From Zavarzinia sp. (lineage in GTDB: Bacteria > Pseudomonadota > Alphaproteobacteria > Zavarziniales > Zavarziniaceae): a DNA stretch of 47,140 bases. The notes below the pieces were generated by a model. That model was not told the DNA's origin and made no database searches. It saw only the letters and a list, made by a program, of their open reading frames with translations. The position numbers and the translations under genes were made by a program. Position 1 is the first letter of the stretch. Each line of letters opens with the position of its first letter. Shown here in pieces: positions 7,453 through 27,398 of the stretch. The stretch lies in contig JAOZVS010000128.1 of NCBI GenBank assembly GCA_025869435.1, forward strand, positions 1 through 47,140. The letters run 5' to 3'.

Positions 7453-8544
7453 ATGATGGACGCGCTCTCCCTTAATTCGTCATGCCGGCGAAGGCCGGCA
7501 TCCCGATCCGGGCGGGGGCGTTTCTGGCTGTTGGTCGCGCTCGTATCCTGGCTGCTGGCAGGGGCGGCGCTGGCGCAAGCCCCTTTGCCCTGGACCGATT
7601 TCAAGGGCCGCTTCCTGACCGAAGACGGCCGGGTGATCGACAATGGCAATGGCAAGGTCAGCCACAGCGAGGGCCAGGGCTTCGCCATGGTGCTGGCGGT
7701 CGCCGCCGATGACCGGCCGGCCTTCGACCTGATCTGGTCCTGGACCGAGGTGCATCTGCGGCGCAGGGATGACGCGCTGTTTTCCTGGCGCTATGTCCCG
7801 GACGCGGCCAATCCCGTGGACGATCCGAACGACGCGGCCGATGGCGATATCTTCATCGCCTGGGCGCTGGCCCGGGGCGCCATCCGCTGGTCGGACCCGG
7901 CGCTGGAGACGGCGTCCGCCGAGATCCGCCGCGCGATCCTGCGGAAACTGGTGGTCGAAGCTGGAGGGCGGCGATTGCTGTTGCCCGGCGTCGACGGTTT
8001 TCGTGTCGAGACGAACAAGGGCAAGCAGGGCGATGCCCCGCCCGACCTGATCATCAATCCCTCCTATTACGTCTTTCCGGCCTTCGCCGATTTCCACGCC
8101 GTCGCCCCGGACGAGGGCTGGGACAGGCTGTCGGCCGATGGCATGGCCCTGCTGCTCGATGCCCGTTTCGGCCGCTATGGCCTGCCGCCGGACTGGCTGC
8201 TGGTGACGGGGGACGGCCGTCTGGCGCCGGCGCCCGGCTGGCCGCCGCGCTTTGGCTATGACGCCGCGCGCGTGCCGCTCTATCTCGTGTGGGGCCGGGC
8301 CCCCGCCGCGCAATTCACCGCCCTCAGGGCCTGGTTCGGCGGCACCTGGGGCGTCACGCCGGCCTGGGTCGATCTCGCCACCGGCAAGCTCGCGGCTTAT
8401 CAGGCCTCGCGGGGGGTGCGGGCGGTGGCGGGCCTTGTCCTTGGAACAAGGGATGTCGCCGCCGAAGTGCCCCTGGCGGACGACAATTATTATTCGGCGG
8501 TCCTGGCGCTTCTCGCCGCCGCCGCCTGGCACGACCTGCGTTAG
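7453..8544 (+). CDS. bcsZ: GH8 endoglucanase of the cellulose operon (BcsZ/CMCax type)
   Basis: A secreted endo-1,4-beta-glucanase of glycoside hydrolase family 8, which trims or releases nascent cellulose in the periplasm. From the ATG at 7453 the protein has 363 residues. SEGQGFAM around Glu73 carries the expected catalytic acid, and DAADGD at 127-132 holds the conserved acidic residues. A hydrophobic signal segment ends at GAALAQA. The stretch before it is arginine-rich and is encoded by a palindromic intergenic-type repeat (7482-7501), so the true start is uncertain: a longer frame opens at 7363, or a non-ATG start may lie after the repeat. There is no good ribosome site at 7453. In acetic acid bacteria the matching gene lies upstream of acsAB; here it is downstream. 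Its 3' end overlaps the convergent MFS gene by four bases. Confidence 0.9.
   Translation: MMDALSLNSSCRRRPASRSGRGRFWLLVALVSWLLAGAALAQAPLPWTDFKGRFLTEDGRVIDNGNGKVSHSEGQGFAMVLAVAADDRPAFDLIWSWTEVHLRRRDDALFSWRYVPDAANPVDDPNDAADGDIFIAWALARGAIRWSDPALETASAEIRRAILRKLVVEAGGRRLLLPGVDGFRVETNKGKQGDAPPDLIINPSYYVFPAFADFHAVAPDEGWDRLSADGMALLLDARFGRYGLPPDWLLVTGDGRLAPAPGWPPRFGYDAARVPLYLVWGRAPAAQFTALRAWFGGTWGVTPAWVDLATGKLAAYQASRGVRAVAGLVLGTRDVAAEVPLADDNYYSAVLALLAAAAWHDLR
7482..7501. repeat. Palindromic repeat of intergenic type inside the bcsZ leader
   Basis: Arms ATGCCGGC and GCCGGCAT are separated by the four-base loop GAAG. The surrounding sequence (CGTCATGCCGGCGAAGG, then CCGGCATCCCGATC) resembles the dispersed palindromes found between genes in many high-GC proteobacteria. 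Here it lies within the predicted N-terminus of the endoglucanase, or in its leader if translation starts further down. Confidence 0.7.
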
Positions 8545-9746
8545 CCTGTCCGCGTCGCCCGCGCCGCGGCCGCGAGGGCGAGCAGCGAGAGCAGGGCCGC
8601 CAGCAGGAAGGCGGCGCCGGGCAAGGGATAGAGCGCATTCGCTCCAGCGAAATGGCTGAAGATGCCGGCGCCCAGGGCCGGACCGAAGAAGGCGGCAAGG
8701 CCGGTCACGCTGCTGATCGTGCCCTGCAACAGGCCCTGTTCGCCGCCATCCGTTCCCGATGACACCAGCGCCTGCGCCGCCGGCCCCGCCATCATGGCGA
8801 AGGGCACCAGCATGAGCGCGGCATAGACCTGCCAGCCCGCCGTCACCATCGACAGAGCGACGCAGAACAGCGCGGTGAAGCAAAGCGCCGTCAGCAAGGC
8901 CCCGCGCGAGCCCAGCCGCGCGATCAGCCGGGGGGCCAGCAGGACCTGAGCCAGGATCGCCATCACCCCGAGGACGCCAAGGGATTTCCCGACATCGCCC
9001 GGCCCCCAGCCGAGGCGGAGATCCATGTAGAGCACCCAGGTCGCCTGCAGCGCCGACTGCGCCAGCATGTAGAGGAAGATCGCCCCGAGCAGCCCGCCCA
9101 TCAGGCGCGAGCGCCACCAGGTCATGAGGCCGGCCAGCGGGTTAAGGGCGGCAAGGTCGAGGGGCTTTCGCCGGCCCGCAGGCAGGCTCTCGGGCAGGAC
9201 GAAGATCGCATAGAGCAGGTTGAGCGCGGTCAGCCCGGCGGCGGCCAGGAAGGGAACCCGGGGGCCGAGATCGCCCAGCAAGCCGCCGATAGCGGGGCCC
9301 GAGACGAAACCAATGGCGAAGGCGGCCCCGGCGAAGGCGAAGGCCTTGCCCCGGTCTTCCGGCGTCGTCACGTCGGCGACATAGGCCGAGGCGGCGGCGG
9401 CGCTGGCGCCGAAGGCCCCGGCCACGAAACGCGCGACGAGCAGAAGGCCGACGCTGCCCGCGAGCGCCGCCACCACATGATCGACGGCAGCCCCGGTCAG
9501 GGCCAGCAGCAGGACGGGGCGCCGGCCGAAACGGTCGGACAGGCGGCCGACCAGCGGCGCGCAGAGGAACATCGCCCCGGCATAGGCCGCCTGAATGAGG
9601 CCGAAGACCGTGCTCGCCGCCGCCGGTCCCCGTCCGTCCAGCTCGGCGACCAGATGGGGCAGTACCGGCGCGACCAGGCCAAAGCCCATGGCGTCGAGCA
9701 GGATGGTGATCAGGATGACCCGGGGGCCGGGGGTCGACAGGCGCAT
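8541..9746 (-). CDS. MFS efflux transporter, TetA-like
   Basis: A 401-residue major facilitator protein with about 12 predicted hydrophobic segments. Motif A, GRLSDRFGRR, is at residues 67-76, and an ATPEDRG-like sequence (TTPEDRGKAFAF) is typical of the drug:H+ antiporter-1 group containing TetA. I chose the ATG at 9746, ten bases after the preceding RND gene stops; the longer frame from 9815 would add 23 non-conserved residues overlapping that gene. It is the last gene of the minus-strand NRPS/export operon. In Escherichia coli the mdtABC pump operon also continues with an MFS gene, mdtD, though that protein belongs to a different MFS subgroup. A substrate cannot be predicted; export of the NRPS product or its intermediate is an inference from position. 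Confidence 0.88.
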   Translation of the reverse strand: MRLSTPGPRVILITILLDAMGFGLVAPVLPHLVAELDGRGPAAASTVFGLIQAAYAGAMFLCAPLVGRLSDRFGRRPVLLLALTGAAVDHVVAALAGSVGLLLVARFVAGAFGASAAAASAYVADVTTPEDRGKAFAFAGAAFAIGFVSGPAIGGLLGDLGPRVPFLAAAGLTALNLLYAIFVLPESLPAGRRKPLDLAALNPLAGLMTWWRSRLMGGLLGAIFLYMLAQSALQATWVLYMDLRLGWGPGDVGKSLGVLGVMAILAQVLLAPRLIARLGSRGALLTALCFTALFCVALSMVTAGWQVYAALMLVPFAMMAGPAAQALVSSGTDGGEQGLLQGTISSVTGLAAFFGPALGAGIFSHFAGANALYPLPGAAFLLAALLSLLALAAAARATRTG

Positions 9747-9756
9747 GGGAAGGGTC

Positions 9757-12700
9757 TCAGGCCACCGGCAGCAGGCGGGGCCGCCGCCGTCCGCGCAACC
9801 GGTCGACGGCGACATAGACGACGGGGGTCGTGTAGATGGTGACGAATTGCGCGGCGATCAGGCCGCCGACCATGGCGATGCCCAGCGGCTGACGCAGTTC
9901 CGAGCCGATGCCGACCCCGATCGCCAGCGGCAGGGCGCCGAAGACGGCGGCCATGGTGGTCATGGTGATGGGGCGGAAGCGCTGGCGGGCGGCGTGGACG
10001 ATGGCCTCGCGCGGGGCAAGGCCCAGCTCCCGCTCGGCCACGAGGGCGAAGTCCACCATCATGATCGCATTCTTCATCACGATACCGATGAGGAGGATCA
10101 GCGCGATGGCCGCGATGAAGGAAAATTCGGTTCCCGTGATCAGCAGGGCGAGCAGGGCGCCGACGCCGGACGACGGGATGGTCGACAGGATGGTCAGCGG
10201 GTGGGCATAGCTTTCGTAGAGCATGCCGAGGACGAGATAGATCGCGACGATGGCGCCGAGCAGCATCCAGAGCTGGGCGCTGCCGGCATCGGACGCCGCC
10301 TTGGCGTCGCCCGCGAAGAGGCCGGTGATATCGGCCGGCAGGCGCAGGTCTCGCGCCGTCTCGTTGATCCTCGCCATGGCGGTGCCGAGGGCGACATCGG
10401 GGGCGAGGTTGAAGCCGATGGTGATCGCCAGCAATTGCCCCATGTGGTTGATCTGCACCGGCAGCAGGCCGAGGTCGCGGCTGGTGACGACGGACAAGGG
10501 CACCTGGCGCCCATCCTCGGCCGAGACATAGAGCCGGTCGAGGGCATCGATATCGTCGCGGTCGTCGGCGCGAACCTCGATCACCACCTTGGCCTGATCG
10601 AACTCGTTGTAGATATTGGCGACCTGGCGCTGGCCGAAGGCATTGTAGAGCGCGGTGTCGATGGCCGCGACCGAAACCCCCAGCCTTGCCGCGCCGTCGC
10701 GGTCGATCGTGATGCGCGCCGTCAACCCGTTGGCGGCCTGATCGGTCGAGACGTCGGCGATTTCGGGCAGGGCACGCATGGCTTCCCGCATCCGCTCCAC
10801 CTGGCGGGTCAGGCGCGGCAGGTCCGGCCCCAGCATCGTATATTGATAGGCGGCCCGCCCGGCCCGCCCGCCGACGCCGAAATCGTCGACCGGGCTGAGG
10901 TAAGTGTCGATGCCGACCAGCCTCGCCAGCTTCGGCCGCAGCCGGTCGGCGACGGCCTGGGCCGAGACATCGCGCACCCCGAAGGGTTTCAGGTTCACGG
11001 TGATACTGCCATTGTTCAGCGCGTTGAAAATGCCGACCCCGACCGAGGAAGAGACGCTGGCGACGGCGGGATCGGTCATGATCACGCGGACGACATCGCT
11101 TTGGCGGGCGCGCATCGCGTCGAAGGAAATATCGGGCGGGGCATCGGTAATGCCCCGGATCACGCCCGTGTCCTGCTTGGGCAGGAAGCCCTTGGGCACC
11201 ACGCCGTAAAGCCCGAGGCCCAGCAGCATGGCGACGAGGATGATGCCCAGCATGGTCCAGGGCACGGACAGGGCGGCTTCGAGGCTGCGGCCATAGGCAT
11301 CGCCGAGGCGGGTAAGGCCCCGCTCCATCGCCTCGCCCAGACGGCCGCCCTTCGCCGTCTCGCCGCCGGGCGGCAGCAGATGGGCGCACATGGTCGGTGT
11401 CAGGGTCAGGGAAATCACGGCGGAGGCGAGAATGGCGACGGCCAGCGTCACGCCGAATTCCTGAAAGAAACGGCCAAGGATGCCGGGCATGAACAGAATG
11501 GGGATCAGCGCGGCGATCAGCGAGGCCGTCAGGGAGACGACGGTGAAGGCGATCTGGCGGGCGCCGCGCTTCGCGGCATCGAGCGGGCTCGCGCCCTGTT
11601 CCATCAGGCGGAAGACGTTTTCCACCATCACGATCGTATCGTCCACGATGAAGCCGACCGCGATGATCAGCGCCATGATCGACAGATTGTCGAGGCTGTA
11701 ATCCAGCAGATACATGACGGCGAAGGTGGCGCAGACCGCGACCGGAATGGTCGCCGCCGGAATAAGCGTGGCCCAGAAGCGGCGTAAGAAAAGCGCGATC
11801 ACCATGACGACGAGGGCGGTCGACAGCAGCATGGTCAGTTGCAGGTCGAAGATGCCGGCGCGCAGCACCTTGGTGCGGTCGGCGACGACCCGGAGGTCGA
11901 GCGCGGGCGGCAGCAGGGGGCGCAGCTCGGCCAGCGCGACATGCACGCGGTCGACCACTTCGATCGTGTTGGCGCCCGGGCGCTTCCGCACCTCGACGAG
12001 GACGGCGCGCTTGCCGTCCAGCCAGGAGCCGAGTTTGGTGTTGCTGACATCGTCGGTCACGACGGCGATATCGCCGAGGCGGATGGGCGCGCTGCCCTTC
12101 CAGGCGACGATCTGGCCCCGGAAGGCGGCGGCATCGTGCAGCTGATCGTTGGCGGCGATGGAAAAGCTCTTCTCCGGGCCATCGAAACTGCCCTTGGGGC
12201 CGAGGGTGCTGAGCGCCGACAGCGCCGCCCGCACATCCTCGAGATCGAGGCCGAGGGCGCCGATCCGCACCGGATCGATGGCGACCCGCACCGCCGTCTT
12301 GTCGGCGCCGCTGATCGAGACCTGCGACACGCCGGGGATCTGCGACAGTTTCTGCAGGATGATCTGATCGGCGAAATCATAGACCTGGGCCGCCGGCATG
12401 ATGTCGCTGGCGAGGGACAGGGTGATCACCGGGAAGATATTGGGATTGGCCTTGATGTAGAAGGGCGGCGCCGGCAGGTCGGCGGGCAGGGTGGCGGCGG
12501 CCGCGTTGATCGCCGCCTGCACGTCGCGGGCGACACCGTCGACATCCCGCGAGACATCGAACTGCGCGACGATGGTCGAGCCGCCGAGGGCGTTGATCGA
12601 GGTGAGTTCCGTGAGGCCGGCGATGGTGCCGATCTGCCGCTCCAGCGGGGTGGCGACGGCGGCGGCCATGGTCTCGGGACTGGCGCCCGGAAGGCCGGTG

Positions 12701-12840
12701 CGGACGACGATGGTCGGCAGGTCGACGACCGGCATCGAGGCGACGGGCAGGTGGAAATAGGCGACGAGGCCGAGCAGCATCACCCCGATCATCACGAGCG
12801 AGGTCGCGATGGGCCGCCGGATGAAAGGGTCGGACAGCAT
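9757..12840 (-). CDS. RND efflux pump inner-membrane subunit, MdtC/MuxC-like
   Basis: A 1027-residue proton-driven RND transporter. It has the usual N-terminal helix followed by PIATSLVMIGVMLLGLVAY, the periplasmic ASPETMAAAVATPLERQIG motif, and the fourth-helix region GFIVDDTIVMVEN whose paired Asp residues relay protons. The C-terminal half repeats this architecture. Its N-terminal region resembles MdtC more than MdtB. The gene starts one base after the stop of the other RND gene, has no clear ribosome site of its own and so is probably translationally coupled. Two different RND subunits encoded together normally form a mixed trimer (MdtBC). The window has no TolC-type outer-membrane channel, so one from elsewhere would be needed. 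Confidence 0.92.
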   Translation of the reverse strand: MLSDPFIRRPIATSLVMIGVMLLGLVAYFHLPVASMPVVDLPTIVVRTGLPGASPETMAAAVATPLERQIGTIAGLTELTSINALGGSTIVAQFDVSRDVDGVARDVQAAINAAAATLPADLPAPPFYIKANPNIFPVITLSLASDIMPAAQVYDFADQIILQKLSQIPGVSQVSISGADKTAVRVAIDPVRIGALGLDLEDVRAALSALSTLGPKGSFDGPEKSFSIAANDQLHDAAAFRGQIVAWKGSAPIRLGDIAVVTDDVSNTKLGSWLDGKRAVLVEVRKRPGANTIEVVDRVHVALAELRPLLPPALDLRVVADRTKVLRAGIFDLQLTMLLSTALVVMVIALFLRRFWATLIPAATIPVAVCATFAVMYLLDYSLDNLSIMALIIAVGFIVDDTIVMVENVFRLMEQGASPLDAAKRGARQIAFTVVSLTASLIAALIPILFMPGILGRFFQEFGVTLAVAILASAVISLTLTPTMCAHLLPPGGETAKGGRLGEAMERGLTRLGDAYGRSLEAALSVPWTMLGIILVAMLLGLGLYGVVPKGFLPKQDTGVIRGITDAPPDISFDAMRARQSDVVRVIMTDPAVASVSSSVGVGIFNALNNGSITVNLKPFGVRDVSAQAVADRLRPKLARLVGIDTYLSPVDDFGVGGRAGRAAYQYTMLGPDLPRLTRQVERMREAMRALPEIADVSTDQAANGLTARITIDRDGAARLGVSVAAIDTALYNAFGQRQVANIYNEFDQAKVVIEVRADDRDDIDALDRLYVSAEDGRQVPLSVVTSRDLGLLPVQINHMGQLLAITIGFNLAPDVALGTAMARINETARDLRLPADITGLFAGDAKAASDAGSAQLWMLLGAIVAIYLVLGMLYESYAHPLTILSTIPSSGVGALLALLITGTEFSFIAAIALILLIGIVMKNAIMMVDFALVAERELGLAPREAIVHAARQRFRPITMTTMAAVFGALPLAIGVGIGSELRQPLGIAMVGGLIAAQFVTIYTTPVVYVAVDRLRGRRRPRLLPVA

Positions 12841-12841
12841 G

Positions 12842-15800
12842 TCAGGCCACCGCTTGCGGCGCGGCCTTCCGCCCCCGCAGGCGGCGCTGCAGCCGATCGA
12901 AGGCCAGATAGATGACGGGCGTCGTGTAGAGGCTGAGGACCTGCGACAGGATCAGCCCGCCGACGATGGCGATGCCCAGCGGCTGGCGGATCTCCGCCCC
13001 GGTGCCGCCCGCGACGGCGAGCGGCACGGCGCCGAGCAGGGCGGCCATGGTCGTCATCATGATCGGGCGGAAGCGCAGCAGGCAGGCCTGATAGATCGCC
13101 TCGCGCGGGGGCAGGCCTTCCGTCCGTTCGGCGTCGAGGGCGAAGTCGATCATCATGATCGCATTCTTCTTCACGATGCCGATGAGGAGGATGATGCCGA
13201 TCAGCGAAATGACGTCCAGCTCCTTGCCGAACAGCATGAGGCCGAGCAGGGCACCGATGCCGGCGGACGGCAGGGTGGAGAGAATGGTGATCGGGTGGAT
13301 GTAACTCTCGTAGAGAACGCCGAGAACGATATAGACCGTGACCACGGCGGCGAGGATCAGCCAGATCTCGCTGCTGCGCGAGCGGCCGAATTCGGCGGCG
13401 GAGCCGATGTAACTGCGGCCGATCTGCTCGGGCATGTTGATCGCCGCTTCGGCGGCGTGGATCGCGTCGGTCGCCTCGCCCAGCGACCAGCCGGGGGCGA
13501 GGTTGAAGGACAGGGTGACGGCGGGGAAGAGGCCGTGATGCATCAGGGCGAGGGGGGCAGATTCCTGCGTCGCCCGCGTGAAGGCCGAGAGCGGCACCAT
13601 GTCGCCGCCGGCCGATTTCACATAGGCGAAGCGGAAGGCTTCCGCATCCTCGCGGAACGAGGGCGCAACCTCGAGGATCACCTTGTACTGGTTGGTCTGG
13701 GTATAGATCGTGGCGATCTGGCGCTGGCCGAAGGCGTTGTAGAGCGCGTCGTTGATCGAGCCGATGGAAATGCCGAGGCGGGCGGCCGCGTCACGGTCGA
13801 TGGTCAGCGCGGCCCGCAGGCCCCCGGCCTGCGCGTCGGAGGCGACATCGACCAGGGCCGGCTGGCGGCGCAGCTCGTCGAGCAGGCGGCCGGACCAGAG
13901 CGACAGCTCCTCGGCGCTCACGCCCTGCAACATATATTGATACTGGGTGCGGGCGTGGCTGGTGCCGATGGCCAGTTCCTGCGCCGACTGCATGTAGAGG
14001 CTGATGCCCTGCACGCCCGCCGTCTTCGCCTTCAGGCGGCGCATCACGGCATCGGCGGATTCGCCGCGCGCGCCATGGGGTTTCAGGCTGATGTAGAGCC
14101 GCCCGGCGTTACCCGTCGTGTTGATCGTGCCGGTGCCGACGAAGGCCGAGACGGCGGCGACCGCCTCGTCGCCCCGGACGATATCGGCGATTTCCTGCTG
14201 CCTGGTCGCCATGGCGGCGAAGGAAATATCGGGCGCGGCATCGGTCACGCCGATGATGAGGCCGGTGTCTTGCTGGGGCAGGAAGCCCTTGGGCACCACG
14301 AGGTAGAGCCCGATGGTGCCGATGAGCGTGGCGATGGCGACCAGCAGCGTCTCGCGCTGGCGGTCCAGCACCCATTGGAGGGTGCGGTCGTAGAAGGCGA
14401 CGCCCTTGTTCAGGACATCCTCGCTCCAGCGGGCGATGCGGCCGGGCTTTGCATCCGCCCGGTCGCGGCCGAGGAGATGGGCGCACATCATCGGCGTCAG
14501 GGTCAGGGAGACGACGGCGGAAATGGCGACGGCTGCCGACAGGGTGATGGCGAATTCATGGAACAGCCGCCCCACGACGCCATCCATGAGCAACAGCGGG
14601 ATGAACACCGCGATCAAGGAGACGGTGAGCGAGATGATGGTGAAGCCGATCTGCCGCGCGCCCTTGATCGCGGCGGGCAGCGGCTTCTCGCCCGCCTCGA
14701 TGTGGCGGACGATATTCTCGATCATGACGATGGCATCGTCGACGACGAAGCCGGTGGCAACGGTCAGCGCCATCAGCGACAGATTGTCGAGGGTGAAGCC
14801 CGCCAGCGCCATGACGCCGAAGGTCGCGATCAGCGAGACCGGCAGGGTGATGCTGGGAATGATCGTCGCCCAGAGCTTCCGCAGGAACAGGAAGATCACC
14901 ATGACGACGAGGCCGATCGACAGCAGCAGGGTGAACTGCACTTCCGAAATCGCCGCGCGGATCATGTCGGTGCGGTCGGTCAGCACGTCGATCTTCACCG
15001 TGGGCGGGACCGAGGCGCGGAGCGAGGGCAGCAGGCGGTGGATCGCGTCCACCACCTCGATGATATTGGCGCCGGGCTGACGCTGGATGTTCAGGAGCAC
15101 GGCGGGCTTGCCGTCGTACCAGCCGGCCATGCGCTCGTTCTCGACACTGTCGATCACCACGGCGACATCGCCGAGGCGGACCGGCGCGCCGTTTCGCGTC
15201 GCGATGATCTGCCGGCGGTAGCCGTCGGCATCGAGCAACTGGTCGTCGGCGCTGATCTGGAAGCTCTGGCGCGGGCCGTCGATGCCGCCCTTGGGGCTGT
15301 CGACCGTGGCACCCCGGATGGCGAGGCGGACATCCTCCATGGCGAGGCCGAGGCCGGCGAGGGCGACCGGATTGACCTGGATGCGCACCGCCGCCTTCTG
15401 CCCGCCCTCGATGGTGACGAGGCCGACGCCGCCGACCTGCGACAATTTCTGGGCGACAGCGGTGTCGGCGTAATCATTGACGGCGCGCAAGGGTAACTCG
15501 CCCGAGGTCATGGCGAGGATCAGCACCGGCGTGTCGGCCGGGTTCACCTTGCTGTAGGTCGGCCGGCTGGGCATGAGGTCGAGCGGCAAAAGGCCGGAGG
15601 CGCCGTTGATCTGCGCCTGCACGTCCTGCGCGGCGGCATCGATATCGCGGCCGAGATCGAATTGCAGGGTGATCTGGCTCGTTCCGAAGGACGAGACCGA
15701 ATGCATGGTGGCGAGGCCGGAAATCTGCCCGAGCTGCTTTTCCAGCGGTGTCGTCACCAGCGAGGCCATGACATCGGGCGCCGCCCCCGGCAGGCGGGAG

Positions 15801-15943
15801 GTGACCTGGATCGTCGGGAAATCGACGGTCGGCAGGGCGGTGACCGGCAGCAACCGGTAGCCGAGAAAGCCGAGCAGCACGATGCCGAGGGTCAGCAGCG
15901 TGGTGGCGACCGGCCGGAGGATGAAGGCCTGCGCGAAATTCAT
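12842..15943 (-). CDS. RND efflux pump inner-membrane subunit, MdtB/MuxB-like
   Basis: A 1033-residue RND transporter with RPVATTLLTLGIVLLGFLGY at the first helix, LPTVDFPTIQV and YSKVNPADTPVL in the porter domain, and GFVVDDAIVMIEN in the fourth helix. The wording of these motifs follows MdtB-type subunits, whereas the next gene follows MdtC. It starts four bases after the membrane-fusion protein gene stops. Together the three genes reproduce the MdtABC order. Known MdtABC systems pump bile salts, novobiocin and similar amphiphiles; here co-transcription with an NRPS and a glycosyltransferase suggests export of an amphiphilic product, which is inference. Confidence 0.92.
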   Translation of the reverse strand: MNFAQAFILRPVATTLLTLGIVLLGFLGYRLLPVTALPTVDFPTIQVTSRLPGAAPDVMASLVTTPLEKQLGQISGLATMHSVSSFGTSQITLQFDLGRDIDAAAQDVQAQINGASGLLPLDLMPSRPTYSKVNPADTPVLILAMTSGELPLRAVNDYADTAVAQKLSQVGGVGLVTIEGGQKAAVRIQVNPVALAGLGLAMEDVRLAIRGATVDSPKGGIDGPRQSFQISADDQLLDADGYRRQIIATRNGAPVRLGDVAVVIDSVENERMAGWYDGKPAVLLNIQRQPGANIIEVVDAIHRLLPSLRASVPPTVKIDVLTDRTDMIRAAISEVQFTLLLSIGLVVMVIFLFLRKLWATIIPSITLPVSLIATFGVMALAGFTLDNLSLMALTVATGFVVDDAIVMIENIVRHIEAGEKPLPAAIKGARQIGFTIISLTVSLIAVFIPLLLMDGVVGRLFHEFAITLSAAVAISAVVSLTLTPMMCAHLLGRDRADAKPGRIARWSEDVLNKGVAFYDRTLQWVLDRQRETLLVAIATLIGTIGLYLVVPKGFLPQQDTGLIIGVTDAAPDISFAAMATRQQEIADIVRGDEAVAAVSAFVGTGTINTTGNAGRLYISLKPHGARGESADAVMRRLKAKTAGVQGISLYMQSAQELAIGTSHARTQYQYMLQGVSAEELSLWSGRLLDELRRQPALVDVASDAQAGGLRAALTIDRDAAARLGISIGSINDALYNAFGQRQIATIYTQTNQYKVILEVAPSFREDAEAFRFAYVKSAGGDMVPLSAFTRATQESAPLALMHHGLFPAVTLSFNLAPGWSLGEATDAIHAAEAAINMPEQIGRSYIGSAAEFGRSRSSEIWLILAAVVTVYIVLGVLYESYIHPITILSTLPSAGIGALLGLMLFGKELDVISLIGIILLIGIVKKNAIMMIDFALDAERTEGLPPREAIYQACLLRFRPIMMTTMAALLGAVPLAVAGGTGAEIRQPLGIAIVGGLILSQVLSLYTTPVIYLAFDRLQRRLRGRKAAPQAVA

Positions 15944-15947
15944 GGGA

Positions 15948-17183
15948 TCAGGAATTCGGCTGGGACGATCCCGCGACCGGGGCTTCCGGCTGGGGCGCCG
16001 CGGCTTCCGTCAGGGCGCCGGGCTGCAGCTTGTACTGGCCGTCGAGCACGATCTTCTGGCCGGCGGGCAGGCTGCTGGTGATCAGGGCGCGTCCATCCTG
16101 CAGTCGGTTGACGACGACCGAGCGCATGGCGGCGCGGCCCTCGCCATCGACGGTCCAGAGATAGGCGCCGTTCGGCCCTTGCTGGATCGCCGTCGCCGCG
16201 ACCGACAGACCTTCGTAGATCGAGACGCGAAGCCTGGCGTTGACGAACTGCCCGGGCCACAGGCGATTGTCCGCGTTGGGGAAACTGGCCTTCAGCTTCA
16301 CCGTGCCGGTGGTCTGGTCGATCTGGTTGTCGACGAGGTCGAGGCTGCCTTCGGCCAGCAGGGTCTTGTTGTCCTTGGCGAAGGCGGAAACGGGCAGGGC
16401 GCCCGCCGCCATGCCGTCGATGATCTCGGGCAGATGGTCGGCGTTCAGGCTGAAGACGACGGCGACAGGCGAAATCTGGCTGACGGTGACCAGCGGATTG
16501 GCGTCGGCGGCATGGATGATATTGCCGACGTCGACGCTGCGCAGGCCCGTCCGCCCGTCGATGGGCGAGCGGACCACGGTATAGTCGAGCTGGGTGCGGG
16601 CATAATCGACCTGCGCCTCGTCGGCGGCGACCAGGGCTTCGTATTGGGCGACCAGGGCGCGCTGGTTGTCGACGGTCTTGCGCGCGGCGAATTCGCCGAT
16701 CGAGACCAGCCGGTTCAGGTTGTTGCGGGCGTCGGCCAGCTGGGACTTGTCGCGGGCGAGATTGGCCAGCATCTGCTTCAGGTTGGCTTCCAGCGGCCGG
16801 GGATCGATGCGGGCGAGGATATCGCCGGCCTTCACCGTGTCGCCTTCCTTGAAGGCGATCTCTATCACCTCGCCGTCGACCCTCGCGCGCACCTGCACCG
16901 TGTTCGAGGGCTGGACCGTGCCGATACCATCGAGGAAGACCGGGGTTGGTCGCTGCTCGATCGTGGCCATGACGACGGGAACGGCACCGCCCAGCGCATC
17001 GAGGGCGGGGGCACGGGCGCCGCCGGCCCAGGCGATCAGCCCGACCAGCACGCCGGCGCCAATGCCGCCGGTGACGAGGCGGGTGCGAAGGCCGAGGCCA
17101 CGCCAGCGCACGAACAATCCGTCGGCCTGGCGACGGACGCGATCGGTGAAATCAGCTGCCAGCATGATCCGCCGCGAAGGCAA
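15948..17183 (-). CDS. RND membrane-fusion (periplasmic adaptor) protein, MdtA-like
   Basis: A 411-residue adaptor that would link the RND pump to an outer-membrane channel. An N-terminal membrane segment lies at about residues 35-55 and no lipobox is visible. The barrel-sandwich half motif VQVRARVDGEVIEIAFKEGD and its partner YTVVRSPIDGRTGLRSVDVG bracket a helical hairpin, and a beta-barrel follows (VDNQIDQTTGTVKLKASFPN), all typical of MdtA/AcrA proteins. The gene overlaps the 3' end of the glycosyltransferase gene by about 30 bases if it starts at 17183, or 14 bases from the in-frame ATG at 17165; I see no ribosome site that decides between them. Either way it is coupled to the biosynthetic genes. 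Confidence 0.92.
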   Translation of the reverse strand: MPSRRIMLAADFTDRVRRQADGLFVRWRGLGLRTRLVTGGIGAGVLVGLIAWAGGARAPALDALGGAVPVVMATIEQRPTPVFLDGIGTVQPSNTVQVRARVDGEVIEIAFKEGDTVKAGDILARIDPRPLEANLKQMLANLARDKSQLADARNNLNRLVSIGEFAARKTVDNQRALVAQYEALVAADEAQVDYARTQLDYTVVRSPIDGRTGLRSVDVGNIIHAADANPLVTVSQISPVAVVFSLNADHLPEIIDGMAAGALPVSAFAKDNKTLLAEGSLDLVDNQIDQTTGTVKLKASFPNADNRLWPGQFVNARLRVSIYEGLSVAATAIQQGPNGAYLWTVDGEGRAAMRSVVVNRLQDGRALITSSLPAGQKIVLDGQYKLQPGALTEAAAPQPEAPVAGSSQPNS

Positions 17184-18483
17184 GGCCGGCCGTCGATGCG
17201 TCGGCGGTGGCGGGGCGTGTCAGCAGGCCCCAGTCGGCCAGTTGGCGAATGGCCCGCTCGACACCGTTTTCCTGGCGGATCTTCTCGCCGAGGCGCTTCG
17301 CGTTGGCCGCCAGCGCCGGATCGAGCACGGCCTTGATCGCCTTGGCCATTTCGGCGGCGGTCACGGTCTTGCGGTTCAGGTGATGGGGGGCGGCTCCCAG
17401 TTTTTCCAGCTGGTTGGACCAGAAACCCTGTTCGGTGATGAAGGGCATGACCAGCGAGGGGATGCCGGCGCGGGCGGCGGCGGCGGTCGTGCCGGCGCCG
17501 CCATGGTGGAAGGCGGCGGCCATGCGCGGGAACAGCCAGTCGTGCGGCGCCTGCTTCAGGACAAGGACCTTGTCGTTGCGCAGCGATTCGTCCGCCGTGA
17601 TGCCGCCCCAGCCGGTGGCGACGATGGCACGGCAACCAGCGAGGCGGATCGCCTCGAGCACGATGCGGGTGATCCGCTCGGCATCCTTGCTGAGCATGGA
17701 GCCGAAACCGACATAGAGCGGCTTGTCGCCGGCGGCGAGGAAAGCGGCGAGGTCTTCGGGCGGTTGCCAGACCTCGCCTTCGTCGAGGAACCAGAAGCCG
17801 GTCACCTGCTGATCCGCCGTCCAGTCGCGCGACTTGGGCAGGATCTGCTCGCTATAGGCATAGAGCACGCGCTTGCGCTCGACCGGGCCGCCGTAATAGG
17901 GGCCACGCCAGGTATAGGGCTTCAGCCCCAGGTCTTTCCGCAGGATATCGTTGATCGCCGGGGCGAACATCTGCCAGGTCATCATGCGCAGCGCATGATA
18001 GAGGAAGAGGTTGATGGGGCCCGGGATCTTGAAGCGGGTGGGCGGCAGCATCATCGGTGTGATGTCGCGGCAGGGCGTCATCGGCTGGAGCTGGGCCTGC
18101 ACGCAAGAGATGCCGAGGGCATCCGACAGGGAGGCGACGAGGATGGTGGCCGGGCCCTGACCGATCAGCAATTCCGCCCCTTCGGCGGCGGCCTTGCCTT
18201 CCTCGGCCCAATGGGAGGCCATGGCGCCCAGCTTGCCGCGCATGATCCGGCCGACCTTGACGACATTCATGCCGTTTTCGATCATTTCCGGCGCGGCGCG
18301 CATCAATTCTTCGTAATCGGCGGTCAGCGGCGAATAGCCGACGCCGAAGCGGCGGATCAGATCCTCGAAATTATGGCTCGCCGCCAGGGTGACCTGGTGG
18401 CCCTTCTTCCGCAGCCCGTGGCTGAGGGCGAGGAAGGGCCGGATATCGCCCATGGTGCCGACGGCGAAGACGGTGATGCGCAT
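17152..18483 (-). CDS. GT1-family glycosyltransferase (UGT / RhlB-like)
   Basis: A 443-residue GT-B glycosyltransferase. The N-terminus MRITVFAVGTMGDIRPFLAL is the acceptor-side signature of the sterol glucosyltransferase/UGT/RhlB group. The C-terminal donor site reads FHHGGAGTTAAAARAGIPSL followed by PFITEQGFWSNQ, which matches the nucleotide-sugar binding signature of GT1 enzymes. It would transfer a hexose or deoxyhexose from a nucleotide sugar to a hydroxyl or carboxyl group of a lipophilic acceptor. The ATG at 18483 overlaps the NRPS stop as TGATG, so the two proteins are made together, and the natural inference is that this enzyme sugars the NRPS product. RhlB-like activity on a hydroxy-fatty acyl group is one option; a sterol or hopanoid acceptor is another. 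Confidence 0.9.
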   Translation of the reverse strand: MRITVFAVGTMGDIRPFLALSHGLRKKGHQVTLAASHNFEDLIRRFGVGYSPLTADYEELMRAAPEMIENGMNVVKVGRIMRGKLGAMASHWAEEGKAAAEGAELLIGQGPATILVASLSDALGISCVQAQLQPMTPCRDITPMMLPPTRFKIPGPINLFLYHALRMMTWQMFAPAINDILRKDLGLKPYTWRGPYYGGPVERKRVLYAYSEQILPKSRDWTADQQVTGFWFLDEGEVWQPPEDLAAFLAAGDKPLYVGFGSMLSKDAERITRIVLEAIRLAGCRAIVATGWGGITADESLRNDKVLVLKQAPHDWLFPRMAAAFHHGGAGTTAAAARAGIPSLVMPFITEQGFWSNQLEKLGAAPHHLNRKTVTAAEMAKAIKAVLDPALAANAKRLGEKIRQENGVERAIRQLADWGLLTRPATADASTAGLAFAADHAGS

Positions 18484-21400
18484 CAGGCGAAAACCTTGGC
18501 GTCGGCCGGGGCCGAGGCTTCGAGGGCGGCGGCGATCACCGGACCGATGCGGCCGAGGGTGCCGACATCCAGCATTTCCTGGTGGTGGCAATCGATCTCG
18601 GTCACGGCGACGCTGCCGGCGACATGGGCCGTCCAGGCCCGCGGCTGATGGTGCAGGATCTGGTCGAGATCCGCCCCCTTGCCCCTGGTGGCGCGGACGA
18701 AGGTGACATCGGCGGCGACCATGCCGGGGGTGAAGCGGCGAGCGAGGCGCATGTTGTTCTCGATCACCTTGCGGATGTTGTCGAAGAGGTCCGGAGTCTT
18801 GCGCTGCATGTCCTGCACCGCGGGTATCGAGAACACGTCGTAACGCTCGCAGATGAACTCGGCAAGCCTGTCCATGCGCAAGGGGCCGGCGCCGAGGTCG
18901 GCTTTCTCGTAGCCGAGGAAGGACAGAGCGTTGAGCACTTCCGCCGCCTCGTCCGCTGGCGGCTTGTCGGTGACGAAGGGATAGGCGTCGAGAAGGCCGA
19001 GGAAGGCGATCGTCTCGCCCGCCGCTTCCATCTGGCGGGTCATCTCATGGGCGATCAGCCCGCCGAAGGACCAGCCCAGCAGGTGGTAGGGTCCCTTCGG
19101 CTGGATGCGGCGCACCTCGGCCAGATAGTCGGCCGCGATCTGCGGAATGTCGGCGGGCAGGGGCGCCGCGTCGGCGATGCCGCGCGACTGCAGGGCATAG
19201 ACCGGGCGGTCCTGGCCGACATGGCGCAGCAGGCCGCCATAGCCCCAGCCGAGGCCGAGCACGGGGTGCAGGCAGAACAGCGGCGCCCGGGCGCCGCCCG
19301 CCTTCAGGGGCAGGGTGGTGGCGAAGGGATCGTGGGCGGCATGGCGCTCCAGCGCCTCGGCGAGGCCGGCGATGGTCGGCGTGCCGAAGACGGCGCCCAG
19401 CGGAATTTCGACGCCGTGGCGGCTGCGCAGGGTGGCGATCATGCGGGCGGCGGCCAGCGAATCGCCGCCCAGCTCGAACAGGCTGTCGTGAATGCCGACC
19501 TTCTCGACATTGAAGGCTTCGGCCCAGAGCGCGGCGAGGATTTCCTCCATCGGCGTCCGGGGCGCGACATAGCCCTGGCGCGGCTCGTATTGCGGGGCCG
19601 GCAGGGCGCCGCGGTCGAGCTTGCCGTTCGGATTGACCGGCAGCGCGTCGAGAGTGACGAAGGCCGAGGGAATCATGTAGTCCGGCAGGGTCTTCTCGAT
19701 CTGCTGGCGCAGCAGGCCGGTGTCCAGTTCGGCCCCCGGCTCGGCCACGACATAGGCGACGAGGCGTTTGTCGCCATTCGGCTCCTCGCGCAGGATCACC
19801 GTGTTCTGGCGCACCCCCGGGCAGGCGGCGAGGGCGGCCTCGATCTCGCCGGCCTCGACGCGGAAACCGCGGATCTTGATCTGGAAGTCGCTGCGGCCGA
19901 GGAATTCGAGCACGCCGTCGGCCCGCCAGCGGGCGAGGTCGCCGGTCTTGTAGAGCCGCCCGCCCGGCCCGCCGAAGGGATCGGGAATGAAGCGCTCCGC
20001 CGTCAGGTCGGGCCGCCGCAGGTAACCATCGGCGACGCCGAGACCGCCGATATAGAGATCGCCCGGAATGCCGATCGGCACCGGCTTCATGTGGCGGTCG
20101 AGGACATGGATGGTGGTGTTCCAGATCGGCCGCCCGATCGGCGGCGAATCCAGATCGCGGCCGGCGAGTTCCATCACCGTCGACCAGATCGTCGTCTCGG
20201 TCGGGCCATAGAGGTTGATCACCCGGCCCGACAGGCGGTGCAGGGCGCGCGCCAGAGGCGGCGGCAGCGCCTCGCCGCCGACGAGGGGCAGCAACCCGCG
20301 CAGGGCGGGGGCGTGATCATTGACCAGCGCCTGCCACAGCGACGGCGTCGCCTGCATGAGGGTCGCGCCGAAATCGCGGATGACGTCGACGAGGGCGGCG
20401 GGATCCCGCACCACGTCGCGCGGCACGACGGCGATCGCGGCGCCCACGGTCAGCGGCAGATAGAGTTCGAGCGCGGCGATGTCGAAGGCGATGGTGGTCA
20501 CCGCCACCAGGCGGTCCTCGGCGGTGATGCGAAGGGTGTCGCGCATGGCGGCGAGGAAATTGGCGAGGCCGCGGTGCGGCACGACGACGCCCTTGGGCCG
20601 GCCGGTCGAGCCCGAGGTGTAGATGACATAGGCGGCATCGGCGAGGCCGAAGCTGGCCTTGCGATCGGCGTCGCCCGGATTATGGGTCGCCGCGTGCGAG
20701 GTATCGGTGCGGTCGAGGAACAGACAGGGCAGGCCATTCACCGGCAGGCGCCCGGCGATGGCGCTGGTCGTCAGCAGCAGCGCGGGCTGGGCATCCTCGA
20801 TCGTGAGCGCGAGGCGGGCCGGCGGGGCCTCGGGGTCGAGGGGCAGATAGGCGGCCCCCGCCTTGTGGATGGCGATCAGGGCCGCCGGCAGGTGGCGATT
20901 GCGCGGCAGGGCGACGGCGATCAGGCTGCCCGGGCCGATGCCGCGGGCCAGCAGCGTATGGGCGAGGCGGTTCGCCTCCTCGTTCAGCGTGGCGTAGTCG
21001 AAGCTGGCGGTGGCGTCGGTTACCGCCAGGCGCCCGGGCGTCGCCGCCGCCTGCGCCTCGAAATCCTCGATCCAGGGGCGGTCCGAGACGGGATGAGCGG
21101 TATCGTTCCACACCGTCTCGATCAGGCGGCGTTCCTCGGGCGAGAGCACGTCGACGGCGCCGATAGGACCTGTCGGGTTCTCGATCACCGCCTCGATCAT
21201 GCGCACCAGGCGTTCCTGATGTTCCTGCAACTCGTCCCTGGTATAGAGGCCGGGGTTGGCGTCGAAATCGATGCGCAGGCCACGGCCGTCGTCCCGGTCA
21301 TAGACGAAGATGGTCAGGTCCTCGACCGAGCCGTTGGAGAGATTGTGGAAAGTGGACGGCAGGCCGGCGAAGCGCAGGTCGTAGTCGAAAGGTTCGATAT

Positions 21401-22463
21401 TGATGCCGGTCCAGCTGATCTGCTGGTCCTGGCGCAGCAGGCCGAGGTCGCGGCGCAGGTCCTCATAGCGATACTGCTGATGGCGCAAGCCGCCCATGAC
21501 CGCGCTCGACGCCTGCTGGATCAGGTTGTCGAGGGTGACCTCCGGGCTCATGGCGAAGCGCATGGCGATGGCATTGGCCATCATGCCCGGAATACGGCGA
21601 AGGACGCCCGACGTGCGTCCGGTGACCGGCATCCCGAGCACGAGGTCGTCGGCGCCCGAAACCCGGTAGATATAGGCGGCGAGCAGGGCGATCAGGATCT
21701 GCGGCATGGTTCCGCCGGCCTGTTTGGCCATTTCGCGGAGCGCCAGCGACTTGTCTTGCGACAGCCGCGCGGTCGAGCGCAGCAGCCCGCCGGTCGGCGC
21801 CACGCGGCGCTTGGCGAGCGAGATCGGCTCGGGCAGGCCCGCGAGGCGCTCGCGCCAATAGTCGCGGTCGCGCTCGTGGCGGGGCGAATTGCGGTAGGAC
21901 TGCTCGGATTCGACGATGGTGGCGAAACCGCCGAAGGGGCAGGGCTCGGGCGCGCGGCCCTCGACCAGGGCGGTATAAAGTTCGGCGCAGCGCCGGGCCA
22001 GCAGACCGCCGCCGAAGCCGTCGAGGATGATGTGGTGGCAGCGGTGATACCAGATGAAGCGCTCGTCGGCGATTTTCAGCAGGGCGACGAACCACAGCCG
22101 GGTGCCGGCCAGATCGACGGGTTCCGACAATTCGGCCATCATCCAGGCTTCGGCGACCGCCAGCGGATCGGCTTCGTCGGTGAAGTCGATATAGGGAATG
22201 CTGCCGGCGTAGAACGGCTCGATCACCTGGCGCGGGCCGTCGTCGGTATCGACAATGCGGGTTCGCGCCGTTTCCGCCTCGTTGGCGAGGGTGTGGAGCG
22301 CGCGCAGGAACAGCTCGGGATCGAGGGCGCCGGTGATCTCGACATATTCCGATATGTTGAACACCGAATCCGAGGGGGCGATCTTGCTGCTGACCCAGAT
22401 GCCGCGCTGGCCGATGGCGAGGGGCAGGACCTGGGGCGGCGTGGTGCGTTCGACGATGCCCAT
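18483..22463 (-). CDS. Single-module nonribosomal peptide synthetase, C-A-T-TE
   Basis: A 1326-residue stand-alone module. Condensation domain: residues about 10-440, with the active-site HHIILDG intact at 143-149. Adenylation domain: about 460-960, with YTSGSTGRPKG near 617, NLYGPTETTIW, and NGKLDRG carrying the catalytic Lys. Carrier domain: LGGDS with the phosphopantetheine Ser near 1002. Thioesterase: about 1060-1326, with GWSFGG (nucleophile near 1132), LLDAYP and the late His in CHHQEM. Aligned by eye to GrsA, the ten specificity residues read D-I-L-Q-L-G-L-I-W-K, which I recall as a glycine code. A leading C domain in a one-module enzyme normally accepts an acyl-CoA or acyl-ACP, as in serrawettin W1 synthetase, so an N-acyl-glycine or its ester oligomer is the likely product. 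The start is the ATG at 22463, behind AGGAG, one base after the PPTase stop. Confidence 0.93.
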   Translation of the reverse strand: MGIVERTTPPQVLPLAIGQRGIWVSSKIAPSDSVFNISEYVEITGALDPELFLRALHTLANEAETARTRIVDTDDGPRQVIEPFYAGSIPYIDFTDEADPLAVAEAWMMAELSEPVDLAGTRLWFVALLKIADERFIWYHRCHHIILDGFGGGLLARRCAELYTALVEGRAPEPCPFGGFATIVESEQSYRNSPRHERDRDYWRERLAGLPEPISLAKRRVAPTGGLLRSTARLSQDKSLALREMAKQAGGTMPQILIALLAAYIYRVSGADDLVLGMPVTGRTSGVLRRIPGMMANAIAMRFAMSPEVTLDNLIQQASSAVMGGLRHQQYRYEDLRRDLGLLRQDQQISWTGINIEPFDYDLRFAGLPSTFHNLSNGSVEDLTIFVYDRDDGRGLRIDFDANPGLYTRDELQEHQERLVRMIEAVIENPTGPIGAVDVLSPEERRLIETVWNDTAHPVSDRPWIEDFEAQAAATPGRLAVTDATASFDYATLNEEANRLAHTLLARGIGPGSLIAVALPRNRHLPAALIAIHKAGAAYLPLDPEAPPARLALTIEDAQPALLLTTSAIAGRLPVNGLPCLFLDRTDTSHAATHNPGDADRKASFGLADAAYVIYTSGSTGRPKGVVVPHRGLANFLAAMRDTLRITAEDRLVAVTTIAFDIAALELYLPLTVGAAIAVVPRDVVRDPAALVDVIRDFGATLMQATPSLWQALVNDHAPALRGLLPLVGGEALPPPLARALHRLSGRVINLYGPTETTIWSTVMELAGRDLDSPPIGRPIWNTTIHVLDRHMKPVPIGIPGDLYIGGLGVADGYLRRPDLTAERFIPDPFGGPGGRLYKTGDLARWRADGVLEFLGRSDFQIKIRGFRVEAGEIEAALAACPGVRQNTVILREEPNGDKRLVAYVVAEPGAELDTGLLRQQIEKTLPDYMIPSAFVTLDALPVNPNGKLDRGALPAPQYEPRQGYVAPRTPMEEILAALWAEAFNVEKVGIHDSLFELGGDSLAAARMIATLRSRHGVEIPLGAVFGTPTIAGLAEALERHAAHDPFATTLPLKAGGARAPLFCLHPVLGLGWGYGGLLRHVGQDRPVYALQSRGIADAAPLPADIPQIAADYLAEVRRIQPKGPYHLLGWSFGGLIAHEMTRQMEAAGETIAFLGLLDAYPFVTDKPPADEAAEVLNALSFLGYEKADLGAGPLRMDRLAEFICERYDVFSIPAVQDMQRKTPDLFDNIRKVIENNMRLARRFTPGMVAADVTFVRATRGKGADLDQILHHQPRAWTAHVAGSVAVTEIDCHHQEMLDVGTLGRIGPVIAAALEASAPADAKVFA

Positions 22464-22464
22464 G

Positions 22465-23232
22465 TCAGATCTCCTGAACTGTCGGCCGGGCGACATCCGG
22501 CGCCGTCTGGTGCAGCCGGGAATGACGGGTGGTGTGGAGGCGAAGCGAGGCGAGCGGCCGGTCCGCGGCCAGCACGGCGACATAGCCGCCGGGCGCTTCC
22601 AGCCGGTAGAGCCAAAGCGGCGGCCCGTCCGAGCGATCCGCCAGCAGGGCGGCGGGGGCGGCCGGATCGGCGCAGACGTCGAAACTGTCGAGCGGCAGGG
22701 ACAGGCCCATGCCCCAGGCTTTCACGCAGGCTTCCTTGGAGACCCAGGTCTTGAAAAAGCCATCCGCGCGCCGCTGCGCCGGCAGGGCGTCGAGCGAGGT
22801 ATTTTCATTTCGTGAGAAGAAAGTTTCGGACAGGTCCCGGCAGGGAAAATCCGGCTGTACCCGTTCGATATCGATCCCGATCCGGCAGTTTCGCGCCGCG
22901 CCGATCAGGGCGAAATTGCCGGAACGGGATGAATTGAAATCCACCGAGGCGGGGGCGGCGAGACAGGGGCGACCGCGCTCGTCCGTCCTGATGTCGAGGC
23001 TCGCCACGGGGCGCCCGGTGTAATCCGAGAGAATACGGCGCAGGGCACCGCGACTGCGCAGGAAGCGGCGGCGGTCGAGTGGCTTTCGGTATCCTGATGC
23101 GCGTCGCTGTTCGTCCAAACCTGGTTTCAGATCAATGGTTTGGCTTTCAGGTGCCGACAGTTCCAGGTCGACCAGCCATGCTTCCGCCCGGCAGGCCGTG
23201 GAGATCCGTGATGTCTGGTCGTACCTGGGCAT
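22465..23232 (-). CDS. Sfp-type 4'-phosphopantetheinyl transferase
   Basis: A 255-residue enzyme that moves the phosphopantetheine arm of CoA onto the carrier-domain serine. The magnesium-binding motif GIDIERV and the signature WVSKEACVKAWGMGL are clear. An N-terminal region with RRRFLRSRGALRRIL and a following DERGRPCL segment fit Sfp/EntD-type proteins, which serve secondary metabolism rather than AcpS-type fatty acid synthesis. It is the first gene of the minus-strand operon and stops one base before the NRPS starts, so its natural partner is almost certainly the carrier domain of that enzyme. The ATG at 23232 gives the full family length. Confidence 0.92.
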   Translation of the reverse strand: MPRYDQTSRISTACRAEAWLVDLELSAPESQTIDLKPGLDEQRRASGYRKPLDRRRFLRSRGALRRILSDYTGRPVASLDIRTDERGRPCLAAPASVDFNSSRSGNFALIGAARNCRIGIDIERVQPDFPCRDLSETFFSRNENTSLDALPAQRRADGFFKTWVSKEACVKAWGMGLSLPLDSFDVCADPAAPAALLADRSDGPPLWLYRLEAPGGYVAVLAADRPLASLRLHTTRHSRLHQTAPDVARPTVQEI

Positions 23233-23480
23233 GGTGCCGGTCCATGGCTGTTGTACGGTTGTGTAAAAGCGGAAGTCACACCGCTTTTGTGCAACGCGTC
23301 ATGGACAAGAATAGAGATCAAGTGGGGGGATTTGGCAGTACAAGCGCCGTCGATTTGGGCGCAAATGCTTCCATTATCGCCATATCTGGAGGAAGTGATG
23401 GAGCCACCCTGGGATCGGGAACTTTTCCTCCCCGGAAACGGATGTCTTGCCGCCAAAAGCCGACTTGCTTACAGGCCTGT
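23233..23480 (-). promoter_or_regulatory. Leader and promoter region of the PPTase/NRPS operon
   Basis: This gap of about 248 bases is one of the longest in the window and visibly less GC-rich than its surroundings. No convincing gene lies in it; a short plus-strand frame of 77 codons (23251-23484) has no recognisable content. Read on the minus strand, GATAAT at 23378-23373 is a good -10 match, but the matching -35 is weak. A perfect inverted repeat lies closer to the PPTase start (separate entry). I infer that this is the control region of the operon; the exact promoter is uncertain. Confidence 0.45.
23265..23288. promoter_or_regulatory. Perfect inverted repeat upstream of the PPTase gene
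   Basis: Arms AAAAGCGG and CCGCTTTT are separated by eight bases. It lies 33-56 bases upstream of the PPTase start, where an operator or a leader hairpin would act. It lacks the GC-rich stem of a strong terminator. Which regulator would bind is unknown; the adjacent LysR is a candidate only by position. Confidence 0.5.
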
Positions 23481-25365: not shown

Positions 25366-25383
25366 AACCCGAAGGATCGCATC

Positions 25384-26589: not shown

Positions 26590-26590
26590 G

Positions 26591-27376: not shown

Positions 27377-27398
27377 TTGTAAGGAAGGAGCGTAAGGC

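Follow-up and report, generated by a model that had tools for sequence, protein, structure and literature searches.

The window analyzed here, the whole 47,140-nucleotide stretch of Zavarzinia sp. contig JAOZVS010000128.1 (contig C127 of genome G000, a draft that is 75.5% complete), carries a run of seven genes on its minus strand between positions 8541 and 23232. In order, these encode a phosphopantetheinyl transferase (PPTase), a nonribosomal peptide synthetase (NRPS) of a single module with condensation (C), adenylation (A), thiolation (T) and thioesterase (TE) domains, a GT1 glycosyltransferase (GT), a membrane-fusion protein (MFP), two resistance-nodulation-division (RND) permeases and a major facilitator superfamily (MFS) transporter. 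A first-pass annotation of the DNA had proposed that the genes make and secrete a glycosylated N-acyl amino acid. Pfam searches and inspection of the gene junctions confirmed the genes, their order and their limits exactly: the MFS stop codon ends at 8541 and the PPTase open reading frame (ORF) begins at 23232. The features are:

22465 to 23232, minus strand: Sfp/AcpT-type PPTase (Pfam ACPS, 60.4 bits; AASDHPPT_N, 29.4 bits)
18483 to 22463, minus strand: C-A-T-TE NRPS, EntF-type, with the glycine-type code DILQLGLIWK (motifs HHIILDG, LGGDS, GWSFG)
17152 to 18483, minus strand: GT1 glycosyltransferase of the sterol-glucosyltransferase/GtfB group (motifs GTMGDIRP, HHGGAGTT)
15948 to 17165, minus strand: RND membrane-fusion protein, MdtA-like (TIGR01730, 242.8 bits; cut-off 94.9)
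12842 to 15943, minus strand: RND permease 1 (RND1), MdtB-like (NF033617, 1262.6 bits; cut-off 1250)
9757 to 12840, minus strand: RND permease 2 (RND2), MdtB/MdtC-like partner (NF033617, 1122.7 bits, below the cut-off of 1250)
8541 to 9746, minus strand: MFS exporter whose nearest named models are Tet(A/B/C)-like, with scores below cut-off (MFS_1, 156.7 bits)
23233 to 23480, no strand assigned: intergenic stretch 5' of the PPTase gene, presumed from its position to hold the operon promoter

Pfam assigned the PPTase to ACPS (E 2.1e-16), the NRPS to Condensation (4.4e-74), AMP-binding (5.2e-84), PP-binding (1.9e-14) and Thioesterase (3.6e-26), the GT to EryCIII-like_C (3.3e-13) and Glyco_transf_28 (2.2e-11), the MFP to HlyD_D23 (2.5e-14), both permeases to ACR_tran (3e-277 and 0) and the MFS protein to MFS_1 (9.9e-46). 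The junctions were as tight as had been described, no overlap exceeding 14 bases and no gap exceeding 10. A single base separates the PPTase stop from the NRPS ATG (22463), the GT ATG (18483) overlaps the NRPS TGA by one base, and the MFP ATG (17165) lies in a 14-base overlap with the GT; the remaining gaps are 4 bases (MFP to RND1), 1 base (RND1 to RND2) and 10 bases (RND2 to the MFS ATG at 9746). Since homology to relatives begins at about these points, the starts at 22463 for the NRPS and 9746 for the MFS gene seem preferable to those of the longest ORFs, which begin further 5' (22583 and 9815, respectively). Between 23100 and 24600, a scan detected neither a minus-strand sigma-70-type match nor any terminator-like site. 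The layout supports treating the seven genes as one operon-like unit.

The arrangement recurs in the Zavarziniaceae. An NRPS orthologue and a GT match were present in all seven family genomes (the GT of G003 as two pieces on two contigs), and a PPTase match in six, with none in G006. The complete seven-gene order was found in the window genome, in G004 of the same genus (NRPS 92% identical to that of the window) and in G005 (NRPS 69%), where the PPTase match covered only 165 residues at 39%. G006, from a sister genus, has NRPS-GT-MFP-RND-RND, with contig ends cutting the NRPS and the last RND gene. Because the gene order recurs in G004, G005 and G006, the arrangement is not due to chance. The NRPS is therefore linked to the GT and pump in four of the seven genomes and unlinked in the other three. 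There (G001, G002 and G003), the PPTase is adjacent to the GT without the NRPS, across gaps of 159, 67 and 123 bases, respectively, in which no convincing NRPS remnant was detected (best E 0.03). The MFP-RND pump follows the PPTase-GT pair, across a contig break in G003, and the NRPS stands alone elsewhere, in flanks common to G001 and G002 on both sides and to G003 on the one side that is comparable. Trees of the NRPS, GT, MFP, RND1 and RND2 from the seven genomes had identical branching orders, and those of the MFS (five genomes) and PPTase (six) were consistent with it; the G005 + G006 grouping in the NRPS tree had support of 89.2/81. Since the NRPS tree branches like the GT, MFP, RND1 and RND2 trees, we do not favor the idea that the unlinked NRPS is an unrelated paralogue or a foreign gene. 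The simplest reading is that it moved once and was then retained.

The ten-residue A-domain code was DILQLGLIWK in five of the seven Zavarziniaceae NRPSs; G006 has the same nine residues, the tenth lying past the contig end, and G001 has DILQMGLIWK. The window code differs by one residue, in the part shown, from each of two published glycine codes, DILQLGMIWK (PMC12283262) and DILQLGVI, of which eight residues are given (PMC5466765). As a control on the mapping, the code was read in the 10 other EntF-branch members of the C-domain tree, among which is the NRPS of an annotated 2,3-dihydroxybenzoate (DHB) cluster in Roseomonas marmotae; it was DVWHxSLxxK in every case, with a gap in one. We take DVWHxSLxxK to be a Ser-type code. 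Judged by its code, the A domain of the window NRPS very probably loads glycine. Its C domain fell within an EntF-type supergroup (19 of 34 C domains, support 1.0; FastTree, midpoint-rooted) and, inside it, in a subclade (0.992) composed of the window type and a stand-alone glycine-code NRPS of Pseudosulfitobacter, apart from the members from DHB clusters. Membership of this supergroup makes it probable that the NRPS starts from a cap delivered in trans, and agrees with the earlier description of a one-module enzyme with a leading, here initiating-type, C domain. The nearest equivalog models, MxcG (787.7 bits; cut-off 2300) and EntF (722.5 bits; cut-off 2400), scored far below their cut-offs. 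An MbtH match was found in none of the seven family genomes by a search that was positive in 2 of 14 control genomes, and we therefore rejected a dependence of the NRPS on MbtH.

With respect to the cap, a model for the DHB-AMP ligase gave one strong match in the seven genomes, of 702 bits (cut-off 723.55) in G002, while the next best reached 263 bits; the best match was 225 bits in the window genome (75.5% complete) and no more than 228 bits in G004 (99% complete). Since no DHB-type ligase accompanies the window NRPS, a catechol siderophore from this enzyme is unlikely, as is DHB as its cap. The G002 match belongs to a second cluster of that genome (L026, G002:C8:140001-160000), which holds a weak PPTase match, the DHB-AMP-ligase-like protein and a Ser-code C-A-T-TE NRPS at 9016-12903; a catechol siderophore is therefore likely in the G002 species. 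Since no strong aryl-acid ligase match lies beside the Zavarziniaceae NRPS, the probable cap is a (hydroxy)fatty acyl group, the remaining simple choice, to which we give an even chance.

The evidence that ties the GT to the NRPS comes from a parallel change in rate. For each gene, the stem of G001 + G002 was divided by the remainder of a five-taxon tree, with 40 bootstraps per gene and with G003 and G006 excluded for equal taxa. The ratio was 0.458 (range 0.384-0.540) for the NRPS and 0.489 (0.372-0.623) for the GT. The other operon genes gave 0.066 (RND1), 0.052 (RND2), 0.101 (MFP), 0.046 (PPTase) and 0.187 (MFS; 0.145-0.269), and genes outside the operon gave 0.047 (PccB), 0.184 (RluC; 0.108-0.270) and 0.057 (bcsZ, whose G002 copy has another location and is possibly a paralogue). 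When scaled to the remainder of the tree, the NRPS and GT thus changed ~2.5-10 times as much as the pump, PPTase, MFS and three control genes. Within the NRPS, the ratio was 0.638 for the C domain, 0.551 for TE, 0.550 for T and 0.295 (0.237-0.363) for A; within the GT, it was 0.688 (0.494-1.027) for the N-terminal half and 0.302 (0.185-0.447) for the C-terminal half. In GT1 enzymes, the N-terminal half holds the acceptor. The parallel speed-up therefore points to the NRPS product as the GT substrate and to a change in the cap rather than in the glycine; most simply, the GT followed a change of cap. Together with the linkage, it upholds the first-pass assignment of the GT to the NRPS pathway, and action of the GT on the NRPS product appears probable. 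On the cap-swap reading, the C and TE domains and the acceptor-side half of the GT changed together while the glycine code, pump and PPTase stayed as they were. A wider proposal, that the Zavarziniaceae make a set of related glycosylated N-acyl glycines, that one branch exchanged the acyl cap, and that the NRPS and GT are a coevolving pair that outlasted the separation of their genes, is speculative and rather doubtful.

As for the type of GT, the closest solved structures were yeast sterol 3-beta-glucosyltransferases (E 9.2e-51 and 1.1e-50), followed by GtfD and GtfB (E ~2e-30). The match to a solved rhamnosyltransferase, 9ke1, had an E of just 7.9e-5. Since the sterol glucosyltransferases and GtfD/GtfB are so much closer, the RhlB type to which the GT had been assigned is not supported. 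RhlB-type and sterol glycosyltransferases both belong to the GT1 family and share with the window GT the GTxGD..P and HHGGAGTT motifs. All five NCBIfam models that matched the GT did so below cut-off, the best being the rifamycin-inactivating Rgt (131.7 bits; cut-off 800). In a distant alphaproteobacterium, G034 (L056:5943-7205), a GT 37% identical to that of the window lies ~0.5 kb past a multi-module NRPS cluster.

The pump has the MdtABC trait of an MFP with two different RND permeases, and its earlier designation as MdtABC-type stands. The subfamily cut-offs were reached by the MFP and, for NF033617, by RND1, whereas no pump protein reached a strict equivalog cut-off: the MFP scored 308.9 bits against MdtA/MuxA (cut-off 391), RND1 1374.2 bits against MdtB/MuxB (cut-off 1584) and RND2 1108.6 bits against MdtB and 1067.2 against MdtC, both below cut-off; the best MdtC equivalog score of any pump protein was 1243.6, against a cut-off of 1774. 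The MFS protein scored 289.7 bits against the Tet model NF012174 (cut-off 475). E. coli MdtABC, with AcrB and AcrD, takes part in the export of enterobactin, the EntF product (PMC4178200). The window pump is likely to export the operon's product.

We propose the following route. The PPTase, judging by its family, would turn the NRPS T domain into its holo form, the A domain would load glycine, and the EntF-type C domain would join it to a cap that arrives in trans, most likely a (hydroxy)fatty acyl group drawn from general lipid metabolism. TE would then release the product, by hydrolysis or, as EntF and serrawettin synthetase do, by linking copies together. The GT would add a sugar, probably at a cap hydroxyl, a step suggested by its operon position and by the parallel speed-up of the two genes, and export would fall to the MFS protein and MdtABC-type RND pump, together with an outer-membrane channel whose gene lies elsewhere. 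Of the compound originally proposed, glycosylation, export and an N-capped glycine each appear likely, and the fatty-acyl cap is plausible but unproven. Taken as a whole, the account of an operon that produces and exports an N-capped, glycosylated glycine has somewhat less than an even chance; the estimates for glycine loading, GT substrate, export and cap are not independent. If true, a little-studied family would have a compact pathway to an acyl-glycine surfactant or signal that bears a sugar, and would offer a natural experiment on how a tailoring glycosyltransferase tracks its substrate. G001-G003 would serve for comparison, as related strains whose caps are predicted to differ while the amino acid and pump are the same.

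Several points weigh against this account. The nearest characterized C-domain clade uses aryl donors, and sequence does not fix the donor; a glycine-type code also occurs in an NRPS of the more distant alphaproteobacterium G584, and there the C domain does not belong to the EntF-type group; and the operon includes no gene for an outer-membrane channel, acyl loading or sugar synthesis. G000 (75.5%) and G003 (74%) are incomplete, making absences there weak. The G005 NRPS (L031:7092-11166) has a frame broken twice near TE, by sequencing error or decay, and was entered in the rate comparison as separate pieces, which the TE figure uses. The T-domain ratio comes from 75 columns and has a wide range, the ranges of the two GT halves come close, and the rate argument concerns one branch with five taxa per gene. 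The A domain and GT C-terminal half lie above the pump as well, with ranges that overlap those of MFS and RluC, and part of the effect is therefore general to both genes. The speed-up could also have been independent in the NRPS and GT, or a result of relaxed constraint.

Three other explanations were considered. IroB glucosylates enterobactin, and by the same logic an EntF- or DhbF-like NRPS might build an aryl-capped glycine that the GT glucosylates and the MFS protein and MdtABC pump export. The C domain within the EntF-type supergroup and the nearest equivalogs, MxcG and EntF (though far below cut-off), fit such a siderophore-like product, as does the part taken by AcrB, AcrD and MdtABC in enterobactin export (PMC4178200). 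However, six of the seven family genomes (two of them incomplete) have no strong DHB-AMP-ligase match, and the sole one, in G002, adjoins a different, Ser-code NRPS; no Fur or ICE box was found in the window at up to 3 mismatches, although Zavarzinia's own iron boxes may differ; and no TonB receptor was present among the 28 window proteins scanned, a part of the window's ORFs. With the A-domain code, ligase search and iron-box scan all failing to support it, we consider this explanation quite improbable.

The GT and pump might instead form a detoxification or self-resistance unit, the NRPS product being either not their substrate or toxic and silenced by the GT. Rgt is the best NCBIfam model for the GT and the MFS protein resembles Tet pumps, but all five GT models and the listed Tet models were under cut-off. 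Likewise, the PPTase-GT-pump locus is kept without the NRPS in three of seven genomes, yet there the PPTase stays with the GT and pump, the NRPS orthologue is retained, and it is the NRPS and GT, not the pump, that shift rate together; we regard this explanation as unlikely. The parallel rate change also argues against a third, in which a hopanoid or sterol-like membrane lipid would be the GT substrate and the operon a general envelope-lipid unit into which an unrelated NRPS was inserted. Sterol 3-beta-glucosyltransferases of yeast as the closest solved structures (E ~1e-50), the lipid genes upstream, and 9 of 10 distant GT relatives with no NRPS match in the surroundings fetched are what one would expect of such a unit. 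On the other hand, the distant GT relative in G034 adjoins an NRPS cluster, and the regions read next to the G005 and G006 operons gave no match to the lipid genes, leaving this explanation very unlikely.

Each part of the operon is of a known kind. Like the window NRPS, EntF has the C-A-T-TE order, a similar size and a C domain of the same supergroup, and its product is exported in E. coli with the involvement of a pump of the window's type. It differs in its Ser-type code, against the glycine-type DILQLGLIWK, in its curated model, whose cut-off the window NRPS missed (722.5 of 2400 bits), and in that the window genome has no strong DHB-AMP-ligase match (225 bits; cut-off 723.55). The sixth of the A-T matches, at 641.7 bits in one stretch, was PDB 5u89, an amino acid adenylation domain protein that is presumably a DhbF. 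DhbF, the bacillibactin synthetase, has two modules and an MbtH partner, and its first module takes Gly after an EntF-type C domain. This glycine-type A domain behind an EntF-type C domain resembles the window NRPS, whereas the two modules and MbtH do not, there being no MbtH match in any of the seven family genomes. E. coli mdtABCD has an MFP, two RND permeases and an MFS gene in a row. The window shows the same succession, but misses the equivalog cut-offs, has a Tet-like MFS protein and is joined to a PPTase, NRPS and GT. As stated, the window GT is nearer to sterol glucosyltransferase and GtfD/GtfB than to a solved rhamnosyltransferase.

The likeness to serrawettin W1 synthetase (SwrW) suggested by the first-pass annotation holds for the one-module C-A-T-TE architecture and not for the amino acid. 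Serrawettin W1 contains serine and 3-hydroxydecanoate, and most S. marcescens W1 clusters include an MFS gene, as does the window operon (PMC7767323); SwrW thus incorporates serine, while the window code predicts glycine. The words RND and efflux are absent from the main text of PMC7767323, a check that did not cover the word glycosyltransferase.

The combination was then sought elsewhere. A class-level NRPS search (E<=1e-170) retrieved 6 of 385 genomes, namely five Zavarziniaceae and G280 (36%), and a phylum-level search at the same threshold 40 of 398, 38 of them outside the family. Stretches of 14 to 20 kb were opened in G280 and in 11 outside genomes from the phylum search, 12 of the 39 in total, and they held no GT, MFP or RND relative at E<=1e-20. 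The NRPS-GT1-MdtABC synteny search that had been recommended was therefore positive in four of seven Zavarziniaceae and in none of these 12. One-module NRPS relatives outside the family were 34-41% identical. A class-level GT search (E<=1e-60) retrieved 16 of 385 genomes, 11 outside the family; in the surroundings of 10 of these (G229 was left out), NRPS matches occurred only in G034. Among plasmid records, 537 had an NRPS match and 15 a GT match, and no NRPS-GT pair was present in those opened (four and three, respectively); a Rhizobium lusitanum plasmid record had no annotation at the locus. In Roseomonas, a distant RND pump (29-33%) lies ~6 kb from the DHB NRPS, and a contig scan that detects close relatives only returned Z. 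aquatilis as the sole one. Titles and abstract openings, which cover the literature partially and make absence weak evidence, contained no such NRPS-GT-pump combination, in agreement with the earlier impression that it was undescribed, and, for 15 of the 31 papers naming the genus, no Zavarzinia natural product. What seems new is an NRPS-GT pair apparently keeping pace after separation.

A wider group of glycine-type one-module NRPSs without a known product may exist. Pseudosulfitobacter plasmid pDSM107133_h (L089:12070-16044) encodes a one-module NRPS, ~41% identical and with the code DILQLGVIWK, beside cyoABCD and with no GT in the 28 kb read. G584 (L105, G584:C6:472001-492000) has an NRPS of one-module size at 8568-12005 (DILQLGVIWK, 34%), directly followed by a PPTase match at 7511-8050 (E 9e-26), and a second NRPS near.

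Downstream of the operon, the MFS gene converges with bcsZ of a cellulose operon, overlapping it by 4 bases; at 78-3761 on the plus strand, one ORF covers part of BcsA together with BcsB, and bcsC and bcsZ come after it. Upstream on the same strand is a LysR-like ORF, so named from its place and conservation, the shorter version of which gave no Pfam match. Further upstream, a lipid-metabolism operon (24523-33301) diverges from the seven genes, and such divergent lipid genes also adjoin the pump locus in G001, G002, G003 (to the contig limit) and G004. Because ~6 kb read upstream of the operon in G005 and ~16 kb in G006 contained no match to them, the lipid genes were left out of the core unit and not counted as part of the pathway. 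At 37256-38860 on the plus strand, the window also encodes an acyl-CoA-ligase-like protein (225 bits to TIGR02275), a likelier gene than the antisense ORF at 37142-38776, which had no Pfam match.

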